A stretch of DNA of 24,114 nucleotides from a virus. Of this stretch, positions 15,403 to 24,024 are shown piece after piece (within the stretch, counting starts at the first letter, position 1; each line of letters begins with the position of its first letter). The notes below the pieces were generated by a model. The model was not told where the DNA came from. It did no database searches and saw only the letters and a list, made by a program, of their open reading frames with translations. A program made the position numbers and the translations under genes. Where the stretch lies: IMG/VR virus record IMGVR_UViG_3300042301_000963, positions 1 through 24,114 of that record, one strand, 5' to 3'.

Positions 15403-18400
15403 ATGGCTGACCTACAAAGAACATTTCTTGCCGGGAGAATGAATAAAGACCTCGATGAGAGGTTGATTCCTGATGGAGAATACCGTGATGCGGTTAACAT
15501 TACTATTGATACGTCTGAGGGATCTAGTGTAGGTGCCGTTCAGAATGCATTCGGTAACACTCAGCTAAATATTCCACAGAATATATTAGCTAGTATGGGT
15601 GTAGCAATAAGTAACGACCTATCTACCATCGGAGCTGTAACATATGAAGCTCAAAGCCTGCTGTATTGGTTTGTAGTTGGATCTGACTTTGAGGGTATAT
15701 TTGAGTACAATCAAGAAACTCAAATAACATCATTAATACTTGGATGCACTGACGGTCAATTAGGGTTTACTAAAAACAACCTAATCACAGGTGTAAACTA
15801 CATCACTGACGGCAAAGGAAGTGGTCTATTGGTATGGAATGATAATAAGAACGAGCCTAGAAAGATCAACATAAGTAGAGCTAGAACATATTCAGTTGAT
15901 GATCCTCGTATAGATATTGACATCAATCTTATTGTTAAGCCACCGCTCAACGCTCCATACATTAAGCTATCTACACTTGCTAGCCCTAACCTTATCCCAA
16001 ACAATATTGAGGATAAGTTTGTTTACTTCAGCTATAGATACAAGTATGCAGACAACGAGTACTCGTCAATGTCTCCATTTTCAGCAGTCGCGTTTGATCC
16101 TAAAGTTTTGCAAATTGATAGTCAAACTGGTGAGAATAAAGGCATGCTAAACAAGTTCAATCAGGTTGAACTATCATTTGAGACAGGAAATGAATTTGTA
16201 AAAGAGATACAGCTATTGGTTTGGGAGTCTAGAACTCTAAATGTAAGAATTATAGACAACTTAGATAAGTCTGAACTTAATATACCAGATAATGCAGTTG
16301 AGTCTTTCTACTTCATGAATAATAAGACTTACGCAGCTTTACCATCTGACCAAACCACTAGACTATTTGACAACGTTCCATTAAAAGCATTGGCTCAAGA
16401 TGTAATTGGTAGTCGACTAGTCATGGGTAATTACGTTCAGTTTAGAGATTTAGTTAACTCAGCTGGCATGATTGACATTAATTATGTTGTTGACTATATA
16501 CCAGATCCAATACCAGTTACAGTTGATCCAAAACAGACATGGAGAAGCGATCGTGACTATGAGATTGGTATCGCTTATTTAGATGACTACGGCAGAATGA
16601 CAACTGTTTTGACTACATCATCTGACAATACAGATAACAACCAATCAAACTCTGTATACATACCTGCTGAAAACTCAGACACGGCAAATTCATTGCGTGT
16701 AACGATTAAAAATAAGGCGCCTGAATGGGCTACAGGATATAGATTCTTTGTCAAGCAGTCAAAAGGTGAGTATTATAATATTTTCCCAACTACATTCTTA
16801 AGATCAGGATCATACCGTTACTTTTTAATTAACGAATCTGATAGAGATAAGATAAAAGTAAATGGGTATATCATATTCAAGTCTTTTAATAATGGCGCAA
16901 CGAACACGAATAAAAGATTTAAAGTACTAGAACTAGAGCAAAAGCCAGTTGGTTTTATAGCGGGTGCATTAGAAGGTCTTTATTTTAAAATTAAAGCTGA
17001 TGCCTCAGATACTTTTTTAAATGTAAGCGCTCAGCAAAATTTCAACTTTAATGGATCAGGAAGAGGTTTAAGAATACCTGTATTTAATAGATCTTTAAAT
17101 ATTGATACATCTTACTATAGCTATACAGGTGACAATACAATTATACCTACAACGCAGGATGTTACTGCTTCATTTGTAGGTCCTTTAAACTCTGAGTCTG
17201 ATTTTAGGATTAATGTAGAGATACTTCCAAATGACGAGTTTAGATGGACTTCAAATTTAGCATTATCAACGTGGTCTTCTAATATTCCAATTCCATTTGG
17301 AGGTACTTATACATTATCATCTTCTTCTCTTGGCATGAAGCTTGGCTTTGCTAATGCAATTTATAACGTAGGTGATAGATGGGTTTTCAATGTTAGAGGC
17401 GATGGAAGTACAGAAGGTACTCCATCTTATCCATATACTGGGTATGGGTTACCAGGAACTGCGACATTATATGGAGGAGGTGCTATATTAAAGGGCCCTG
17501 GAGTTATATTTCCAGGAGCATCTATAGAGATAAATATTTTATTTGATTCTAATCCAAATAACCCTACGAATGGAACAGGTGTTCAGAGTTTTATATCAAA
17601 TAACTACTACAAAAACTTAGAAGAGTGGTTTTATGAGTCAGGTGCTTATGCGTCATATATTCAATATAACCAATCAGGAACAAATATTGGATCAAGAGGA
17701 GTTACATTTAGATACGGAACGAATTATCAAAATACAGGTAACCCTTTAAGTAATCAGATAAATCAATCCAATGTTGGAGGTGATATTTATATGATTATTC
17801 AAGGATTTGGAACTGGATCTGGATCTAATCTTAATGAAATAAAGGCCTCTTTAAAGGTAACTCAGACTCCTATTAGTAGTAGAATTTCTGCCGAAACCGT
17901 TCCATCAAATGATGATACAGATATTTACTACGAGCTTAGCAGAACGCACAAGATAGAGAATGGAAATCACCTTTCTTTGTGGAGGTATGATGCTTCTACA
18001 GTTATTGGTTCAAATTCAAAGCTAACTCAAAACGGAAATAAGGAGCCGCATTACTTTGAAGCAGGACAGACTGTCTATATAACAGCGTCAAACATTCCAG
18101 CAGGTACTCCTTTTACAGTTGTATCAGCTCCGGATAGATATTCTATACTCATCAATTATGTTGTTCCATCCAATCAATCTGGTGGTGTATCTAATAATGA
18201 CTTTGATCAAGACCAAACTAGTGCACTGAACCCGGCTATAGTTGTTTTGAACAATCCTACCAATAAAAACTCTGACTACAACGCATACTGCTATGGCAAT
18301 GGTGTTGAGTCTAACAGAATTCTTGACACATACAATGAGCCTTGGCTTAAGTATAGCTTAAGAGCTAGCACTGTAATTGAGGATTATGAGCAGCAAATAA

Positions 18401-19254
18401 AAGATGCGTCTCTCACCTATAGTGGTCTATACCAATGGAGCTCTTCAATTAACAGACTCAATGAGTTTAACTTGTCTACAGCTAACTTCAAGAACCTTGA
18501 CAAGAACTTTGGCTCTGTTCAGAAGATTTATGCTAGAACTACAGACCTATTGGTTTTACATCAGAACAAAATAACGTCAGTTCTTTATGGCAAAAATCTG
18601 CTAGTTGATGCCGTTGGCGGGGGTACTGTAGCATCAGTTCCTGAGGTGCTTGGTACACAGATTGCATATCCATATGAGTTTGGTATATCTAGCAATCCTG
18701 AGAGTTTTGCAGTTTGGGGTGATACAATGTATTTCGCAGATTCAAAAAGAGGTGCTGTATTGAAGATGACAAATGATCAAGTACTAGAGGTGTCTAGAGT
18801 TGGTATGTCTGATTACTTTAGAGATTTAATGAAGGCAAACCCTCAAAACGCAAAACTTGGGGCCTATGATCCATACAACCACAACTACGTAATAGCATCT
18901 ACAACTATTAGAAATACACCTTGCGATATAACAATTAATCCTACTGTTGGAAGTGTAGCTCATAACACAGCGGGTAGTTTAGAGTATATGTTCTCAATAT
19001 CAGGCACAACATCTTGGTTTATTCAATTAATTAGCATTGGATTTGGAACAAGTTGGATTGAGCTGCCTCCATACTGCCAAACAGGTGTTGGATCTCAAGA
19101 TATTTATGCTAGAGTTCAAAATAACTTAGCAACAGTACCAAGATCTGTTGCATTTAGAGTTCACTACTGTAGTTCATATGTAGATTACATACTTACTCAA
19201 GGTATAGGCAAAAAGATAGACTTTAATATTTTAACATTCGGCAAAAATGAGTAA
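15403..19254 (+). CDS. Large tail hub/stabilisation protein with C-terminal BACON-like domain
   Basis: A 1283-residue protein. The N-terminus, FLAGRMNKDLDERLIPDGEY then RDAVNITIDTSEGS (8-41), is the classic start of tail tubular B or crAss-like stabilisation proteins, which form the tail nozzle. A repeated strand-rich region follows, probably propeller-like. Near the C-terminus, FADSKRGAVLKMTNDQVLEV (about 1113-1132) with GMSDYFRDLM is another hallmark of this group. Residues of about 540-860 look like an insertion rich in Gly, Ser and Asn, with AGA, GGA and TTA codons. Residues of about 1174-1266 resemble a BACON domain: SGTTSWF, GTSWIELPPYCQTGVGSQDI, VPRSVAFRV and a closing ILTQ. BACON domains are thought to bind glycans or mucin, so this may assist attachment. 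The BACON call is from pattern only. Confidence 0.86.
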   Translation: MADLQRTFLAGRMNKDLDERLIPDGEYRDAVNITIDTSEGSSVGAVQNAFGNTQLNIPQNILASMGVAISNDLSTIGAVTYEAQSLLYWFVVGSDFEGIFEYNQETQITSLILGCTDGQLGFTKNNLITGVNYITDGKGSGLLVWNDNKNEPRKINISRARTYSVDDPRIDIDINLIVKPPLNAPYIKLSTLASPNLIPNNIEDKFVYFSYRYKYADNEYSSMSPFSAVAFDPKVLQIDSQTGENKGMLNKFNQVELSFETGNEFVKEIQLLVWESRTLNVRIIDNLDKSELNIPDNAVESFYFMNNKTYAALPSDQTTRLFDNVPLKALAQDVIGSRLVMGNYVQFRDLVNSAGMIDINYVVDYIPDPIPVTVDPKQTWRSDRDYEIGIAYLDDYGRMTTVLTTSSDNTDNNQSNSVYIPAENSDTANSLRVTIKNKAPEWATGYRFFVKQSKGEYYNIFPTTFLRSGSYRYFLINESDRDKIKVNGYIIFKSFNNGATNTNKRFKVLELEQKPVGFIAGALEGLYFKIKADASDTFLNVSAQQNFNFNGSGRGLRIPVFNRSLNIDTSYYSYTGDNTIIPTTQDVTASFVGPLNSESDFRINVEILPNDEFRWTSNLALSTWSSNIPIPFGGTYTLSSSSLGMKLGFANAIYNVGDRWVFNVRGDGSTEGTPSYPYTGYGLPGTATLYGGGAILKGPGVIFPGASIEINILFDSNPNNPTNGTGVQSFISNNYYKNLEEWFYESGAYASYIQYNQSGTNIGSRGVTFRYGTNYQNTGNPLSNQINQSNVGGDIYMIIQGFGTGSGSNLNEIKASLKVTQTPISSRISAETVPSNDDTDIYYELSRTHKIENGNHLSLWRYDASTVIGSNSKLTQNGNKEPHYFEAGQTVYITASNIPAGTPFTVVSAPDRYSILINYVVPSNQSGGVSNNDFDQDQTSALNPAIVVLNNPTNKNSDYNAYCYGNGVESNRILDTYNEPWLKYSLRASTVIEDYEQQIKDASLTYSGLYQWSSSINRLNEFNLSTANFKNLDKNFGSVQKIYARTTDLLVLHQNKITSVLYGKNLLVDAVGGGTVASVPEVLGTQIAYPYEFGISSNPESFAVWGDTMYFADSKRGAVLKMTNDQVLEVSRVGMSDYFRDLMKANPQNAKLGAYDPYNHNYVIASTTIRNTPCDITINPTVGSVAHNTAGSLEYMFSISGTTSWFIQLISIGFGTSWIELPPYCQTGVGSQDIYARVQNNLATVPRSVAFRVHYCSSYVDYILTQGIGKKIDFNILTFGKNE

Positions 19255-21886
19255 GACTAAACAAGCATTTTCATATACAGGCAGCACAACCTATACAATA
19301 GATAACGTCATTCTAAGCAATAGCGCTATCGCTCTATTTGACTCTAACACCGGGGTTGGTGGCATTGACTATATACCATATAATGGATCTACAGTTACGG
19401 TAGTTGCTGGATCAACATCAGATTCTTACGAGAAACTAGCTCCTACATTAAATAACAAGCTATATTATCTTGTATCTGACATCCAATACTCAGCTGAAGA
19501 TAAGGCAACCATACTAGCGGCAGCCACAGAGATACCTGTAGTATTTAGCGGAGGGGTATTTACAGGTCAATTTGTATTCCTAAACCCAAACAACTATGAC
19601 TATGTTTATCTTCTTTGGGACTATGAGGATAAAATGGACGTAGTTGCATCATATAAAGGCGTGACTGAAAATAGGTCAATAGGCATGTCTTTTGGTACAA
19701 CAATCGGGCGGGCTGGTATTAATTTTAATACCATTAATCCTGACCAACCGACAAGATATCAGATTGAATGGAATGGTGAAATTGTAGCTGACACCAAGTA
19801 TGTCGGATTAAATTCAACCGCAAATTATGATGCACTAATTGCGGCTGGTATACCTGCTGAAGATATTGGGCTTGTGGCACCTTATAATGGCCTTGTTGAT
19901 AATGGCGATGGTATTATTAATTTTTACAAAAACCTACCAACCGCAGATGCTAAGTTAATTGTATCATCTCCATTTAGAGATTCAACGTGGATTGTTAATA
20001 AAATTAATCCATACTTAACTAGGATGTTTATAGATCCAGCACCTGGAACAACTTCTGATGTGTGTGCTCAATCACCTGCGGATGACATATGGCATAATGG
20101 CGTTGATTTACTACCTAATGTTGGTGATCAATTGTTTGTCACAAACGATGGTTTAGAGGTTTATGTTGGTGATGAGTATTTACATTTAATAGATTCTCCA
20201 GTTGTTTCATCAGCTATTTATTATATAACTTCAAGTTTAACAGGTGAGGTACTTTCAAAAGAAAATTGTACATGCTTTGAATATGCTGCTCCTTTTATTC
20301 TTTCTGACACTATAACAGTTGAGTCAAATATACAAGAGTCTGTTACTATAGAGACTGTAAACAAGCCAACATCTTGGGAATTACGAGTAAGCACGTTGCC
20401 GTCTGAGGCTTCATTCTCTAATGGAACAATCTTATTTAATAACTGCCCTGCTGGTACTTATTCAGTAACTCTTAGAGCTACTAACTGTGTAGGCACTAGC
20501 GCAGAAACAGTCATTGCAATAAATGTGGTTGACACAGGAGATTTAAAACCAGTACTAATTGATATTGAGCAGTTTAAAGAGTCAGGGAATGATGCGTGTT
20601 TAGTTATACCTACATTCACGCTAATGTACTTTGGTGGTAATTCATACATTCCTGATCTTACCGATACTATTTATTATGATTCAGCTGGAACAAAACCATT
20701 CATGGGGGGTGAGAAGTGGTATCAAATAAATGACTCAGATTATTCAATTCAAGTAGATACTCATGGCACTGTATTGAAAAAATCAACATGTGCTGGCACA
20801 ACAACAACCACAACTACTACAACTACTACAACGCTTCCATCTGGAACTTATTTTACAGCCACATCTTGTTCTGATAGTTCAGTAGATGTCATTTTAAGAA
20901 ATTCACTAGGAACATCTATAACAACTGGAAGTGTTATAAAAACAACAGATGGTAGCTGTTGGATAGTAACCGGATCGACATCTGCAAGATTTCCATACTA
21001 TAACGTTATTACACCTATAGTCACATATGTAAACTGCATCACTTGTATAGGTACGACAACGACTACAACTACAACTAGTACGACCACATCAACACCTGTG
21101 ACTAGTTTTGATATTGATATAACCGGTCTCACCTCAGCTAGATTGGCATGTATAGAAACACCTACATATGTTACTTATTACCATACAGGCACATTTGCAG
21201 TAAACAGTTTTGTTTATACGAATGCAGGAGCTACAACATTATTTAATGGGGCTTTCTTATGGTATCTAGTTAGAAAGTCTGGTGTAACTTATGCCTGCCT
21301 AATTGCTGATACAGGTCAAATACTCAAATTGTTGGCATGTTCTGGTGTTACGACAACTACAACTACAACAACGATTCCTGTGAGATATTACTCAGGCACA
21401 AGGTGCGTTGGTGGTGCTGCTGTATTACTATCGTATACAGGCTTTGAGGCATTAAGCTTGCCTAACTATGTCAAGGATAGCAATGGAAATTGTTGTACTA
21501 TAACTACGTCAGTAGGCCCAGGGACGATTACAGGAACTATATTGTATACGTATAATAGCTGCTCAGAGTGTGCTGCCACAACAACGACTACGACTACAAC
21601 TACTACGACTACAACTACTACGACAACGACAACAACCACAACGACAACAGCCGCACCATTGACTCCAATTACACTGTCATACTCTTCTTCACAATCATCT
21701 GTATGCTCTGTACTTGATATTGATAATTATTATGTCAATGGCGCTATAGGTGTCCCTGGAAATTATATCTTTACAAACCTAATCGGAACAATTCTTGCTC
21801 CATCTGGTTGGTACTTAAATTTAATTACAAATGTTGCGTATGAGTGGAACGGATCAAACTGGACCGGCGCAAGTAAAGCCTGTTAA
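19247..21886 (+). CDS. Modular fibre-like protein with alternating cysteine modules and poly-Thr linkers
   Basis: An 879-residue protein that overlaps the hub gene by eight bases. Residues 1-340 are strand-rich and may attach it to the tail. Residues 346-430 look like an Ig-like putative immunoglobulin (He_PIG) module, with ASFSNGTILFNNCPAGTYSV and TLRATNCVGTS. The rest is five small modules separated by poly-Thr linkers (12, 14, 8 and 24 residues, two Ser in the second). Types alternate A-B-A-B-A: A (432-517, 617-701, 802-879) has a Cys near its start, a Y/V-Y-x-N/S-A-G motif and a W-Y core; B (530-602, 710-777) has a YF/YY start, a DGxC or NGNC centre and a C-x2-C end. Two or more cysteines per module suggest stabilising disulfides. 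It is probably an adhesion fibre, inferred. Confidence 0.84.
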   Translation: MSKTKQAFSYTGSTTYTIDNVILSNSAIALFDSNTGVGGIDYIPYNGSTVTVVAGSTSDSYEKLAPTLNNKLYYLVSDIQYSAEDKATILAAATEIPVVFSGGVFTGQFVFLNPNNYDYVYLLWDYEDKMDVVASYKGVTENRSIGMSFGTTIGRAGINFNTINPDQPTRYQIEWNGEIVADTKYVGLNSTANYDALIAAGIPAEDIGLVAPYNGLVDNGDGIINFYKNLPTADAKLIVSSPFRDSTWIVNKINPYLTRMFIDPAPGTTSDVCAQSPADDIWHNGVDLLPNVGDQLFVTNDGLEVYVGDEYLHLIDSPVVSSAIYYITSSLTGEVLSKENCTCFEYAAPFILSDTITVESNIQESVTIETVNKPTSWELRVSTLPSEASFSNGTILFNNCPAGTYSVTLRATNCVGTSAETVIAINVVDTGDLKPVLIDIEQFKESGNDACLVIPTFTLMYFGGNSYIPDLTDTIYYDSAGTKPFMGGEKWYQINDSDYSIQVDTHGTVLKKSTCAGTTTTTTTTTTTTLPSGTYFTATSCSDSSVDVILRNSLGTSITTGSVIKTTDGSCWIVTGSTSARFPYYNVITPIVTYVNCITCIGTTTTTTTTSTTTSTPVTSFDIDITGLTSARLACIETPTYVTYYHTGTFAVNSFVYTNAGATTLFNGAFLWYLVRKSGVTYACLIADTGQILKLLACSGVTTTTTTTTIPVRYYSGTRCVGGAAVLLSYTGFEALSLPNYVKDSNGNCCTITTSVGPGTITGTILYTYNSCSECAATTTTTTTTTTTTTTTTTTTTTTTTAAPLTPITLSYSSSQSSVCSVLDIDNYYVNGAIGVPGNYIFTNLIGTILAPSGWYLNLITNVAYEWNGSNWTGASKAC
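20798..20833 (+). repeat. Poly-threonine linker 1 (12 codons)
   Basis: Twelve uninterrupted ACN codons (ACA, ACC, ACT, ACG mixed) encode twelve threonines between modules A1 and B1 of the fibre-like protein. Mixed third positions mean the protein run, not a DNA slippage tract, is being kept. Confidence 0.9.
21053..21094 (+). repeat. Poly-threonine linker 2 (14 codons with two serines)
   Basis: Fourteen codons of Thr with Ser at two places (TTTTTTTTSTTTST) join modules B1 and A2. Both Ser codons (AGT, TCA) are one base change from ACN, as expected if the linker tolerates small hydroxylated residues. Confidence 0.88.
21350..21373 (+). repeat. Poly-threonine linker 3 (8 codons)
   Basis: Eight ACN codons between modules A2 and B2, the shortest linker of the four. 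Confidence 0.88.
21578..21649 (+). repeat. Poly-threonine linker 4 (24 codons)
   Basis: Twenty-four ACN codons without a break before the last module. The four ACN codons are freely mixed. It is the longest linker and could hold the terminal module well away from the rest, or carry O-linked sugars. Confidence 0.9.
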
Positions 21887-22803
21887 TGAAAACACTTAGG
21901 ATGTTGTCAGCGCAACCAGCGCTTGACTACTATGCGTGGCAGATTGAGGTATGTATACACAACTTTGCTTCGTTAGGTTACAAAAATATTGACATAGTTG
22001 CCGGGTACCAAGATGAGATACCTGAGTCGTGGAATAAGTTATATCAGACCTACTCTGACATTGCTAGGTTCTTTTTCTACAAGGACACCATGGGTGAATG
22101 CGACTATCCACCTGCCATACAGGCACACCTATTGCAAAAGCATTTCAAGAAACATCCTGATCTGACAAACGATGCAATCTTTTTTCATGATGCTGACTTT
22201 GTATTCACTAAATACTTAGACTTTACACCATACCTAGACAACAATATTTGGTACTTCTCAGACACTATCTCATACATAGGTTACGACTATATCATGAGCA
22301 AGGGTGAAGAGATCTTAAAAGCCATGTGTAATCAAGTTGGCATATCTAGAAAAATAGTTGAGTTTAATAAGGATAGGAGCGGTGGCGCTCAGAAGCTAAT
22401 GAAAAACTTGACGCATCATTATTGGAAGAAGGTAGAAGATGATAGCAAAGGACTATACAAGCTACTGACTGGTATGCAACACATTAAAAAGGAAGATGAT
22501 CCAAATGGCATACAGGCATGGACAGCTAGTATGTGGGCTGAGCTATGGAATGCTTGGTTTTTTGGACATCATGTATCGGTGCCAAAAGACTTTGATTTTG
22601 CTTGGGCTACATGCCCATCAATCACATGGGATGACGTATACTTTTTCCACAACGCAGGAGTTATGAACAACCAACAAGGTATGTTCCATAAAGCATCATA
22701 TATGCACACACTTCCTTTTGGTGAAGACTTAAAGATAGACCCAAATAGATGCTCATACAACTACTATGAAATGATCAAAGGCATGAAAAGTTGCTTGGTC
22801 TAA
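21886..22803 (+). CDS. Glycosyltransferase-like protein (GT-A DxD motif)
   Basis: A 305-residue protein that overlaps the fibre-like gene as TAATG. It contains IFFHDADFVFTKY (98-110), a classic hydrophobic-D-x-D metal-binding motif of GT-A glycosyltransferases (Asp102 and Asp104). The N-terminus, with LGYKNIDIVAGYQDEIPES, reads as a nucleotide-sugar-binding start. Later segments WTASMWAELWNAWFFG and YFFHNAG (residues about 215-265) are aromatic-rich, as in acceptor-binding regions. Which sugar it transfers, and to what, cannot be read. Candidates include host surface glycans (to block superinfection), the phage fibre next door, or poly-Thr linkers. It lacks a membrane segment. The GT-A call is by motif and layout and not by family recognition. 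Confidence 0.72.
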   Translation: MKTLRMLSAQPALDYYAWQIEVCIHNFASLGYKNIDIVAGYQDEIPESWNKLYQTYSDIARFFFYKDTMGECDYPPAIQAHLLQKHFKKHPDLTNDAIFFHDADFVFTKYLDFTPYLDNNIWYFSDTISYIGYDYIMSKGEEILKAMCNQVGISRKIVEFNKDRSGGAQKLMKNLTHHYWKKVEDDSKGLYKLLTGMQHIKKEDDPNGIQAWTASMWAELWNAWFFGHHVSVPKDFDFAWATCPSITWDDVYFFHNAGVMNNQQGMFHKASYMHTLPFGEDLKIDPNRCSYNYYEMIKGMKSCLV

Positions 22804-22821: not shown

Positions 22822-23607
22822 ATGATAGATACAATAACTTATTCAGAAACATCTCAAGGATGGACATCTAGGTGGAGTTATCGACCTGAGTGGATGGTTG
22901 GGTTAAATAGTATATTCTATTCATTTAAAGGTGGCTCTCTTTATCAGCATGACGCTAATATTGTTAGGACTAGATTCTATAATACAACAGACGGATTCTC
23001 AATAAAAACAATTATAAATCAGTCTCCAACAGAGACCAAGATGTATAAGACTTTAGCGTTAGATAGTTCTCATCCAATGAACGTTACAGGATCTACAGAT
23101 CTTGATCCTGTTTATATGAATGTATCTCAGTTCTCAAAGAAAGAGGGTGACTTTTTTGCATACATAAGAAGACCAGTAGCAGATGAATCTAACTTGCAGA
23201 TGGTATCCGCGCAAGGTGTTGGCATCATAGACTCTATTGCCGGCTTTGAGCTTACAATGGATACGCAGGTGAGTAATGCATCTACAGGTGACCTTGTAAT
23301 GGGAGGTATTGTTGACTCAAACAATAACCTAATAACAAGTATAAAGATTGGATACGTTGTAGATGTGGTTGGGGATGTAATATCTATTTCAAGCGATAAT
23401 CCGACTCCACCTACTCCACCTACTCCTGGATTCATAAATGTACCAATAGCAGGAAACTATGTATACATATTAAAAGGGGCTGTAGCTGAGTCATATGGTG
23501 CGAGAGGTAGATATTTAGATGTATCTCTATCATTAAATGGATCAGCTGCTGAAGTAGAGGTAGAGTTGTTTGCAATCAGTACATCAGCATTCAAAAGTTT
23601 TCCTTAA
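22822..23607 (+). CDS. Virion-type protein with beta-rich domains and proline hinge
   Basis: A 261-residue protein. The N-terminal part, ETSQGWTSRWSYRPEWMVGL with NSIFYSFKGGSLYQHDAN, is a motif I recall from structural proteins of Bacteroidetes and crAss-like phages. There, QGWTSxxxYxPE...LNxxxYxFKxGxLYxH introduces strand repeats. RFYNTTDGFSIKTIINQSP and KMYKTLALDSSH follow. A proline-threonine hinge, TPPTPPTPGF (about residues 195-204), leads to a short terminal beta domain (VPIAGNYVYILKGAVAESYG, then LDVSLSLNGSAAEVEVELFA). It lies in a small gap-isolated position with its own promoter-like box. A tail or fibre-cap role is inferred. Confidence 0.76.
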   Translation: MIDTITYSETSQGWTSRWSYRPEWMVGLNSIFYSFKGGSLYQHDANIVRTRFYNTTDGFSIKTIINQSPTETKMYKTLALDSSHPMNVTGSTDLDPVYMNVSQFSKKEGDFFAYIRRPVADESNLQMVSAQGVGIIDSIAGFELTMDTQVSNASTGDLVMGGIVDSNNNLITSIKIGYVVDVVGDVISISSDNPTPPTPPTPGFINVPIAGNYVYILKGAVAESYGARGRYLDVSLSLNGSAAEVEVELFAISTSAFKSFP

Positions 23608-23616: not shown

Positions 23617-24024
23617 ATGGAAGTTAGGTTTTTAGATGACCACGACTACGATGTACTAGCGCAATGGTGGAAAGACTGGAGATGGTCAGCCCCACCTAAG
23701 GATATGCTACCACAAGACGGAAGAGGGGGATTAATGGTAAGTAAAGACGGTGAAGATATTTGTGCCGGATTTGTTTACTTCACGAACTCAAAGACAGCTT
23801 GGATTGAGTACATTGTATCAAACTTCCACTACAGACAAGACGATCGCAAAGAGGCGATAGAACTATTGATTAACTCGCTTGTTGAGGTGGCTGCCGAAAC
23901 AAATGGAACTAAGTATTTCTATACCTCTCTTAAGAACGAGAATTTGATTAACCGATATGCAGAATGCGGATTCCAAAAAGGGACAAGCAACTGCACTGAA
24001 ATGATAAAGATATGGCAGCAGTAA
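23617..24024 (+). CDS. GNAT-family acetyltransferase-like protein
   Basis: A 135-residue protein with the GNAT layout: an N-terminal strand-helix (MEVRFLDDHDYDVLAQWWKD), middle strands (GGLMVSKDGEDICAGFVYFT), the A region (AWIEYIVSNFHYRQDDRKEA, 61-80), a long helix (IELLINSLVEVAAETNGTKY) and a B-region ending (LKNENLINRYAECGFQKGTS, with EMIKIW). The usual acetyl-CoA loop Q/R-x-x-G-x-G/A appears as RQDDRKEA, with no glycine, so cofactor binding may be weak or altered. Small GNAT-like proteins recur in tail regions of Bacteroidetes phages, as I recall, with unknown substrates. It overlaps the next gene by 13 bases. Confidence 0.78.
   Translation: MEVRFLDDHDYDVLAQWWKDWRWSAPPKDMLPQDGRGGLMVSKDGEDICAGFVYFTNSKTAWIEYIVSNFHYRQDDRKEAIELLINSLVEVAAETNGTKYFYTSLKNENLINRYAECGFQKGTSNCTEMIKIWQQ

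Follow-up and report, generated by a model that had tools for sequence, protein, structure and literature searches.

Poly-threonine strings of a crAss-like phage adhesin as a proposed acceptor for a phage-encoded virion O-glycosyltransferase

Mucin-type and serine-rich-repeat adhesins carry Ser/Thr-rich stretches that are glycosylated by cytoplasmic GT-A enzymes encoded alongside them, for example in the GlyE pathway of S. pneumoniae. The Bacteroidetes possess a general O-glycosylation system that acts in the periplasm, recognizes the sequon D(S/T)(A/I/L/V/M/T), and places O-linked sugars on Thr. Phage-encoded virion glycosylation has been described for the mycobacteriophages Che8, Corndog, and Myrna (Freeman et al. 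2023, as cited in PMC12619734 and PMC12363180). For the Crassvirales, excerpts of PMC10136315 describe tail spikes with carbohydrate-binding, BACON, hydrolase, and other domains.

The locus studied here lies in a 24,114-base IMG/VR virus record, which was analyzed over its whole length and is called the window below. It resembles the Crassvirales muzzle and tail fibre proteins, as excerpted from PMC10136315, in its MUZ_C domain, muzzle homologue, Ig-like domain, and place among tail genes. Unlike them, it has a muzzle-linked adhesin and encodes MUZ_C separately, and the same excerpts make no mention of poly-Thr strings bearing Cys modules or of an adjoining glycosyltransferase. With the serine-rich-repeat systems, the locus shares the combination of a Ser/Thr-rich adhesin and a neighbouring enzyme, and GlyE is the best fold match of that enzyme; here, however, there is one small enzyme, the Thr runs are nearly pure, and the modified protein would be a virion protein. 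Che8, Corndog, and Myrna are alike in their phage-encoded glycosyltransferases, with glycans that the excerpts place at the C-termini of capsid and tail-tube subunits. In Che8, however, the genes for gp108-gp110 are far from the structural genes, and the capsid and tail proteins end without poly-Thr. We observed no significant match between a phrog_4417-type profile and Che8 gp108-gp110, and homology to the Che8 enzymes was rejected for this reason.

The window contains a portal homologue (phrog_6547, named portal) and two genes named virion structural, phrog_13704 and phrog_14478, which we read as major capsid and muzzle from their order and length. This portal, capsid, and muzzle block is kept in related loci. 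The portal and the two virion structural genes, together with a crAss_MUZ_C domain, identify the window as a fragment of a crAss-like podovirus. The features that matter here are as follows.

15403..19254, + strand: muzzle-type virion structural protein, 1283 aa (phrog_14478)
19247-21886, + strand: modular adhesin ORF, 879 aa, between the muzzle gene and the phrog_4417 gene
19247..20050, + strand: N-terminal domain of the adhesin, aa 1-268, with the highest conservation in the protein (pairwise identity averaging 77%)
20060..20275, + strand: module A0, aa 272-343, A-type by profile comparison, without a Thr linker
20276..20545, + strand: putative Ig-like domain, aa 344-433, from secondary structure, repeats, and Foldseek matches of the whole model
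20546..20797, + strand: module A1 (Cys451/Cys515), from profile comparison and the alignment of relatives
20798..20833, + strand: linker 1, Thr12, proposed O-glycan acceptor
20834..21052, + strand: module B1, four invariant Cys (541, 571, 597, 600)
21053..21094, + strand: linker 2, T8STTTST, proposed O-glycan acceptor
21095..21349, + strand: module A2 (Cys635/Cys698)
21350..21373, + strand: linker 3, Thr8
21374..21577, + strand: module B2, four invariant Cys (720, 749, 772, 775)
21578..21649, + strand: linker 4, Thr24
21650..21883, + strand: A-like tip module A3, whose second Cys (879) is the final residue of the chain
21886..22803, + strand: predicted GT-A glycosyltransferase, 305 aa (phrog_4417), whose start overlaps the adhesin stop as TAATG
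22822-23607, + strand: separate crAss_MUZ_C protein (PF25729, E 2.1e-9, above the cut-off), found after the glycosyltransferase in family loci that reach that far

We propose, with a probability of about 0.8, that this locus encodes a muzzle-linked adhesin of Cys-stapled modules whose Thr strings are the acceptor for a phage-encoded virion O-glycosyltransferase, phrog_4417. Two other features of the gene order were observed. The crAss muzzle C-terminal domain has a small gene to itself, which lies 3' of the glycosyltransferase and is distinct from the main muzzle gene. The next ORF in the window, as in most family loci extending there, is GNAT-like (acetyltransferase; 23617-24024, below the Pfam cut-off), and its product could contribute to virion or host modification.

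An earlier note on this DNA had described five Cys modules of two alternating types, A-B-A-B-A, on Thr runs. The five modules, A1-B1-A2-B2-A3, are real: A1 and A2 are homologous by profile comparison (E 8e-11), as are B1 and B2 (E 2e-6), and no relationship between A and B modules was detected by the same method. The order and the linkers stand as described, but the fifth module is better called an A-like tip. A3 is weakly A-like (E 2e-5 with the A2 profile and 7e-4 with the A0 profile), and profile-profile comparison gave no support for its homology to A modules. The description also missed what lies before A1, namely, the Ig-like domain and A0 (20060-20275), which is homologous to A1 (E 1e-9). 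An AlphaFold model, which covers neither the N-terminus nor A3, agreed with two module types: A0, A1, and A2 share one strand/helix order, and B1 and B2 likewise share one (pLDDT, ~70-85). Foldseek searches with the whole adhesin returned multi-domain and Ig-type matches only, and neither A nor B could be assigned to a fold reliably; the Ig-like assignment depends on these matches to the whole predicted model. The A and B sequence profiles had no meaningful relative among solved structures, and neither Pfam nor NCBIfam had a name for these modules. An unnamed family, phrog_21885, matches module A1, and tblastn of B1 and A3 against isolated phages gave nothing significant. The N-terminal domain, which has a partial 35% match in Flavobacterium phage tant8-1, presumably attaches the protein to the virion. 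The Ig-like domain profile matches twice in some relatives.

The Thr linkers are encoded by mixed ACN codons in the + frame of the ORF at 19247-21886, and there is no further such run elsewhere in the window. When the adhesin protein was shuffled 2000 times, the longest run averaged 3.5 residues, with a maximum of 7. The earlier note had looked to the O-glycosylation of secreted Bacteroidetes proteins for the modification of these runs, and O-linked sugars on Thr are indeed found in bacteria of the presumed host phylum. This appeal is doubtful, since that system is periplasmic and its sequon, D(S/T)(A/I/L/V/M/T), is absent at the Thr linkers, which lack Asp and follow CAG, CIG, SGV, and CAA. 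We rejected host O-glycosylation of the linkers for want of the sequon. An enzyme encoded by the phage and acting in the cytoplasm makes better sense.

A first scan for relatives of the adhesin gave 22 homologous loci at 54-89% identity. More came from scanning the collection with the DNA pattern C..C..T7, the A and B profile alignments being insufficiently conserved for scanning. The adhesin alignment held 37 nonredundant proteins. Across them, A modules have two Cys each, invariant or nearly so, and B modules have four invariant Cys (in B1, C-x29-C-x25-C-x2-C). An extra Cys pair in A0 is mostly gained or lost jointly: both residues are present in 25 proteins, a single one in 3 and 0, and neither in 6. 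Separately, an otherwise standard adhesin (L103:11181-13724) has an A1 in which both conserved Cys are replaced together. Two relatives, L115 and L124, have a protein in which the muzzle C-terminus runs into the adhesin N-terminal domain, and this fusion locates the adhesin at the muzzle. The invariant Cys, the joint behaviour of the A0 pair, and the muzzle fusion bear out the earlier description of a Cys-rich modular tail adhesin. Cys400 in the Ig domain and Cys684 in A2 were also correlated, but we gave this no weight, since the pattern was probably inherited within a single clade.

These patterns also bear on what the Cys do. The four B-module Cys might bind zinc in the cytoplasm and form no disulfides, an idea that is compatible with glycosylated linkers. 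Four invariant Cys including a CxxC are a common zinc-site pattern, and virion proteins fold in the reducing cytoplasm. Against zinc, the A pair is near-invariant, with both members missing in A1 of L103, and the extra A0 pair covaries as a disulfide would; this evidence concerns the A modules. We regard zinc in B as possible but doubtful.

The earlier note had also called the modules exchangeable. In a reading of this kind, the fibre would be a recombination cassette whose ACN tracts let modules shuffle and thereby alter host range, with glycosylation secondary or absent. Modules have indeed been lost at linkers, B2 in three loci (L071, L115, and L124) and A3 in six (L091, L133, L134, L150, L164, and L165), and poly-Thr proteins outside the adhesin family have different modules. 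Apart from such whole-module losses, however, module order is constant among the 37 nonredundant relatives. Identity tracks position rather than protein: equivalent modules of different phages average 51-69% identity, whereas two A or two B modules of the same protein share 20-29%. Linkers vary little in length, measuring about 12/12-14/8/24 or 11/12/11/22 among the first set of relatives. Identical adjacent codons are somewhat rarer than in shuffles (10 versus 15.5; p 0.044), the opposite of what is expected of a tract kept slippery. Thus, with fixed order and near-constant linkers, free module exchange is unsupported, the position-tracking identities led us to reject shuffling as the main explanation, and we consider the cassette reading very improbable. 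An in-frame deletion that joins linker 2 to mid-A2 was observed in L013 (8001-10556), L042, and L094, which are one contig; perhaps it reflects recombination between repeats or assembly collapse.

PHROGs lists phrog_4417 as being of unknown function, and ten diverse members that we checked also match it. The protein had no Pfam or NCBIfam match above the cut-off and no PDB sequence match. Foldseek with the enzyme model (pLDDT 72; reliable to about residue 238 and poor beyond) gave GT-A enzymes as the best matches, with probabilities of 0.97-1.00 and TM-scores mostly of 0.3-0.4. The top match was GlyE of S. pneumoniae (E 3.7e-5; probability, 1.00). Among 15 diverse members, both Asp of a DxD motif (D102 and D104) are invariant. 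An HNAG...K motif is nearly so, with H255, G258, and K269 fully invariant, in the region beyond the reliable part of the model. In GT8 enzymes, the third metal ligand is a His, and a Lys lies near the C-terminus. From the modelled fold and these residues, the phrog_4417 product is very probably a GT-A glycosyltransferase.

The earlier note had pointed to the glycosyltransferase-like neighbour of the adhesin, and we found that the association with poly-Thr goes far beyond chance. A phrog_4417 homologue was present in 72 of 72 adhesin-family loci with at least 500 bp downstream and was directly adjacent in 68. In the reverse test, loci were picked only by one divergent phrog_4417 protein; 71 of these 80 loci had a poly-Thr ORF, but in a control of 78 random viral loci (634 kb), unmatched in host and in gene type, there was none. 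Loci that are related do not count as independent, and the Fisher value of 2e-35, which ignores relatedness, is descriptive only. After thinning to less than 80% identity, 17 of 21 enzyme loci had a same-strand poly-Thr ORF, adjacent in 12; the other four had none by a strict rule, although one has interrupted Thr stretches. For other residues, runs occurred in 0-6 of 69 loci; the exception was Ser-rich runs (22 of 69), which overlap the Thr runs. For 30 random loci, the search covered the entire record, and phrog_4417 was absent from all of them. The pattern scan, run without reference to the enzyme, gave 33 poly-Thr loci outside the adhesin family with at least 1 kb downstream. In 16 of them, phrog_4417 lies within 2.5 kb, mostly touching; four have a GT2-type gene and one a GT7-like gene, counts that are descriptive because the GT2, GT7, and PF11397 queries were taken from some of the same loci.

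Other poly-Thr genes have no phrog_4417. Outside the 33-locus count, one gene has an adjacent GT2 (L087), and another has a PF11397 gene (GlcNAc transferase) 515 bp downstream (L075). More generally, a GT2-type (PF00535), PF11397, or GT7-like gene lies downstream in place of phrog_4417 in L072, L078, L080, L087, L096, L075, and L139; in L078 and L080, these glycosyltransferases are joined to extra domains (methyltransferase-like, DUF6171). Among the leftover poly-Thr records, which may be incomplete, phrog_4417 was missing in 19 of 25 and GT2 in 11 of 12 tested. One crAss-like group (L052, L055, L073, L081, L083, L092, and L122) has poly-Thr linkers, some of them in muzzle-type proteins, without an adjacent glycosyltransferase, and mostly none was found in the group's incomplete records. 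The earlier note had held that linkers without a neighbouring glycosyltransferase, and unmodified in virions, would speak against its reading; the gene half of this statement describes this group. In the same group, Cys modules with poly-Thr linkers lie upstream of a conserved phrog_15100-type ORF (MSKTIVIKLT...).

The crAss-like group fits a reading in which Thr runs are flexible low-complexity spacers and the glycosyltransferase targets host surface glycans, phage DNA, or another virion protein. Thr runs are plausible as spacers. However, poly-Thr genes also have glycosyltransferases of unrelated families close by, and phrog_4417 follows poly-Thr on unrelated proteins, including as C-terminal tails that need no spacer. 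These tails are found in Firmicutes phages. By tblastn, phrog_4417 is present in 72 isolated phage records, mostly of Enterococcus, Lactobacillus, Staphylococcus, and Lactococcus, and in most regions inspected, the gene adjoins genes for capsid, small head, or tail proteins with poly-Thr C-termini. The 4995_1 capsid protein ends in GTTTTTTKPTTTTTTTQA, and the orf13 protein of Lactococcus phage 1706 ends in TTTTTTTTTTHHD. The tail proteins of phiFL1A and SA2 have such ends, as do the capsid protein, small head protein, and tail protein of iLp84. In Lpa804, the poly-Thr ORFs near the phrog_4417 gene are unannotated, and Enterococcus phage 9183 has broken Thr runs only. Prophage loci in bacterial genomes had tags in 13 of 13 cases. 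In Staphylococcus phage SA2 (L176:4117-4930), a frame overlapping the poly-Thr tail protein end adds more poly-Thr (PTTTTTTSSTTTTTTTTRP...); a frameshift yielding a longer tagged form would fit.

Comparisons within phage lineages weigh further against spacers alone. Among E. faecium-type phages sharing one portal, loci with phrog_4417 have Thr-tagged capsid proteins, whereas three loci (L238, L239, and L243) have no phrog_4417 between the capsid and head-closure genes, and their capsid and tail proteins are untagged. Two further tagged loci of this set end before the expected position of the gene. In about half of the gene-carrying loci, the tail-protein end is T-rich but broken, and thus the capsid tag is the constant one. 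Among L. paracasei phages, iLp84 and R9.1 have the gene and tags; CL1, CL2, and R24.2 have neither, yet their capsid proteins are ~98% identical to those of tagged relatives up to residue 337. The JNU_P10 capsid protein is untagged, and its record stops before the gene position. Within Coetzeevirus, R3.3 has the gene and tags, and Bassarid and phiJL-1 have neither. In three lineages, then, relatives without the gene are also without the tails, on two proteins at once, and we consider it unlikely that the runs are spacers unconnected with the enzyme. In a hand-assembled table of nine lineages, the residues after the Thr run agree among the tagged proteins of one phage in five (permutation p 1.5e-4).

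Returning to Thr strings as the acceptor of phrog_4417, we suggest the following course of events. The adhesin would be the tail-tip protein of a crAss-like podovirus, its N-terminal domain docking at the tail muzzle and its small Cys-stapled beta modules kept apart by poly-Thr strings, and it may bind a receptor. The phrog_4417 GT-A enzyme, translated from the overlapping start codon, would move sugars from a nucleotide-sugar donor onto the Thr strings in the cytoplasm of the infected cell. The glycosylated strings may become stiff, extended, protease-resistant, mucin-like spacers, with shielding as another potential benefit. Disulfides probably form only once the particle has left the reducing cytoplasm. 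Poly-Thr could then be a portable acceptor tag, used as a linker in Bacteroidetes phage fibres and as a C-terminal tail on Firmicutes phage capsid and tail-tube proteins. We think it fairly likely, if less so than the reading for this locus, that poly-Thr is a general tag of this kind on capsids, tail tubes, and fibres of Bacteroidetes and Firmicutes phages, and that it has been paired with phrog_4417 and, on separate occasions, with GT2-, GlcNAc-transferase-, and GT7-like enzymes.

Virion glycosylation by phage enzymes is already known. The new element, as far as the open-licence literature goes, is the pairing of poly-Thr with a glycosyltransferase, of which we found no description there. 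Its recurrence on virion proteins across many unrelated phages suggests that virions are sugar-coated in a widespread way not yet described. For phrog_4417, a family listed as unknown, the proposal offers a function that can be tested; the family occurs both in environmental phages and in cultured phages of Lactococcus, Lactobacillus, Enterococcus, and Staphylococcus. If the proposal is true, a short Thr tail would predict sugar-bearing virion proteins from sequence alone, which would bear on phage stability, on adsorption, and on protein labelling with a minimal tag and one enzyme. It would also explain the long Thr strings in many environmental phage fibres.
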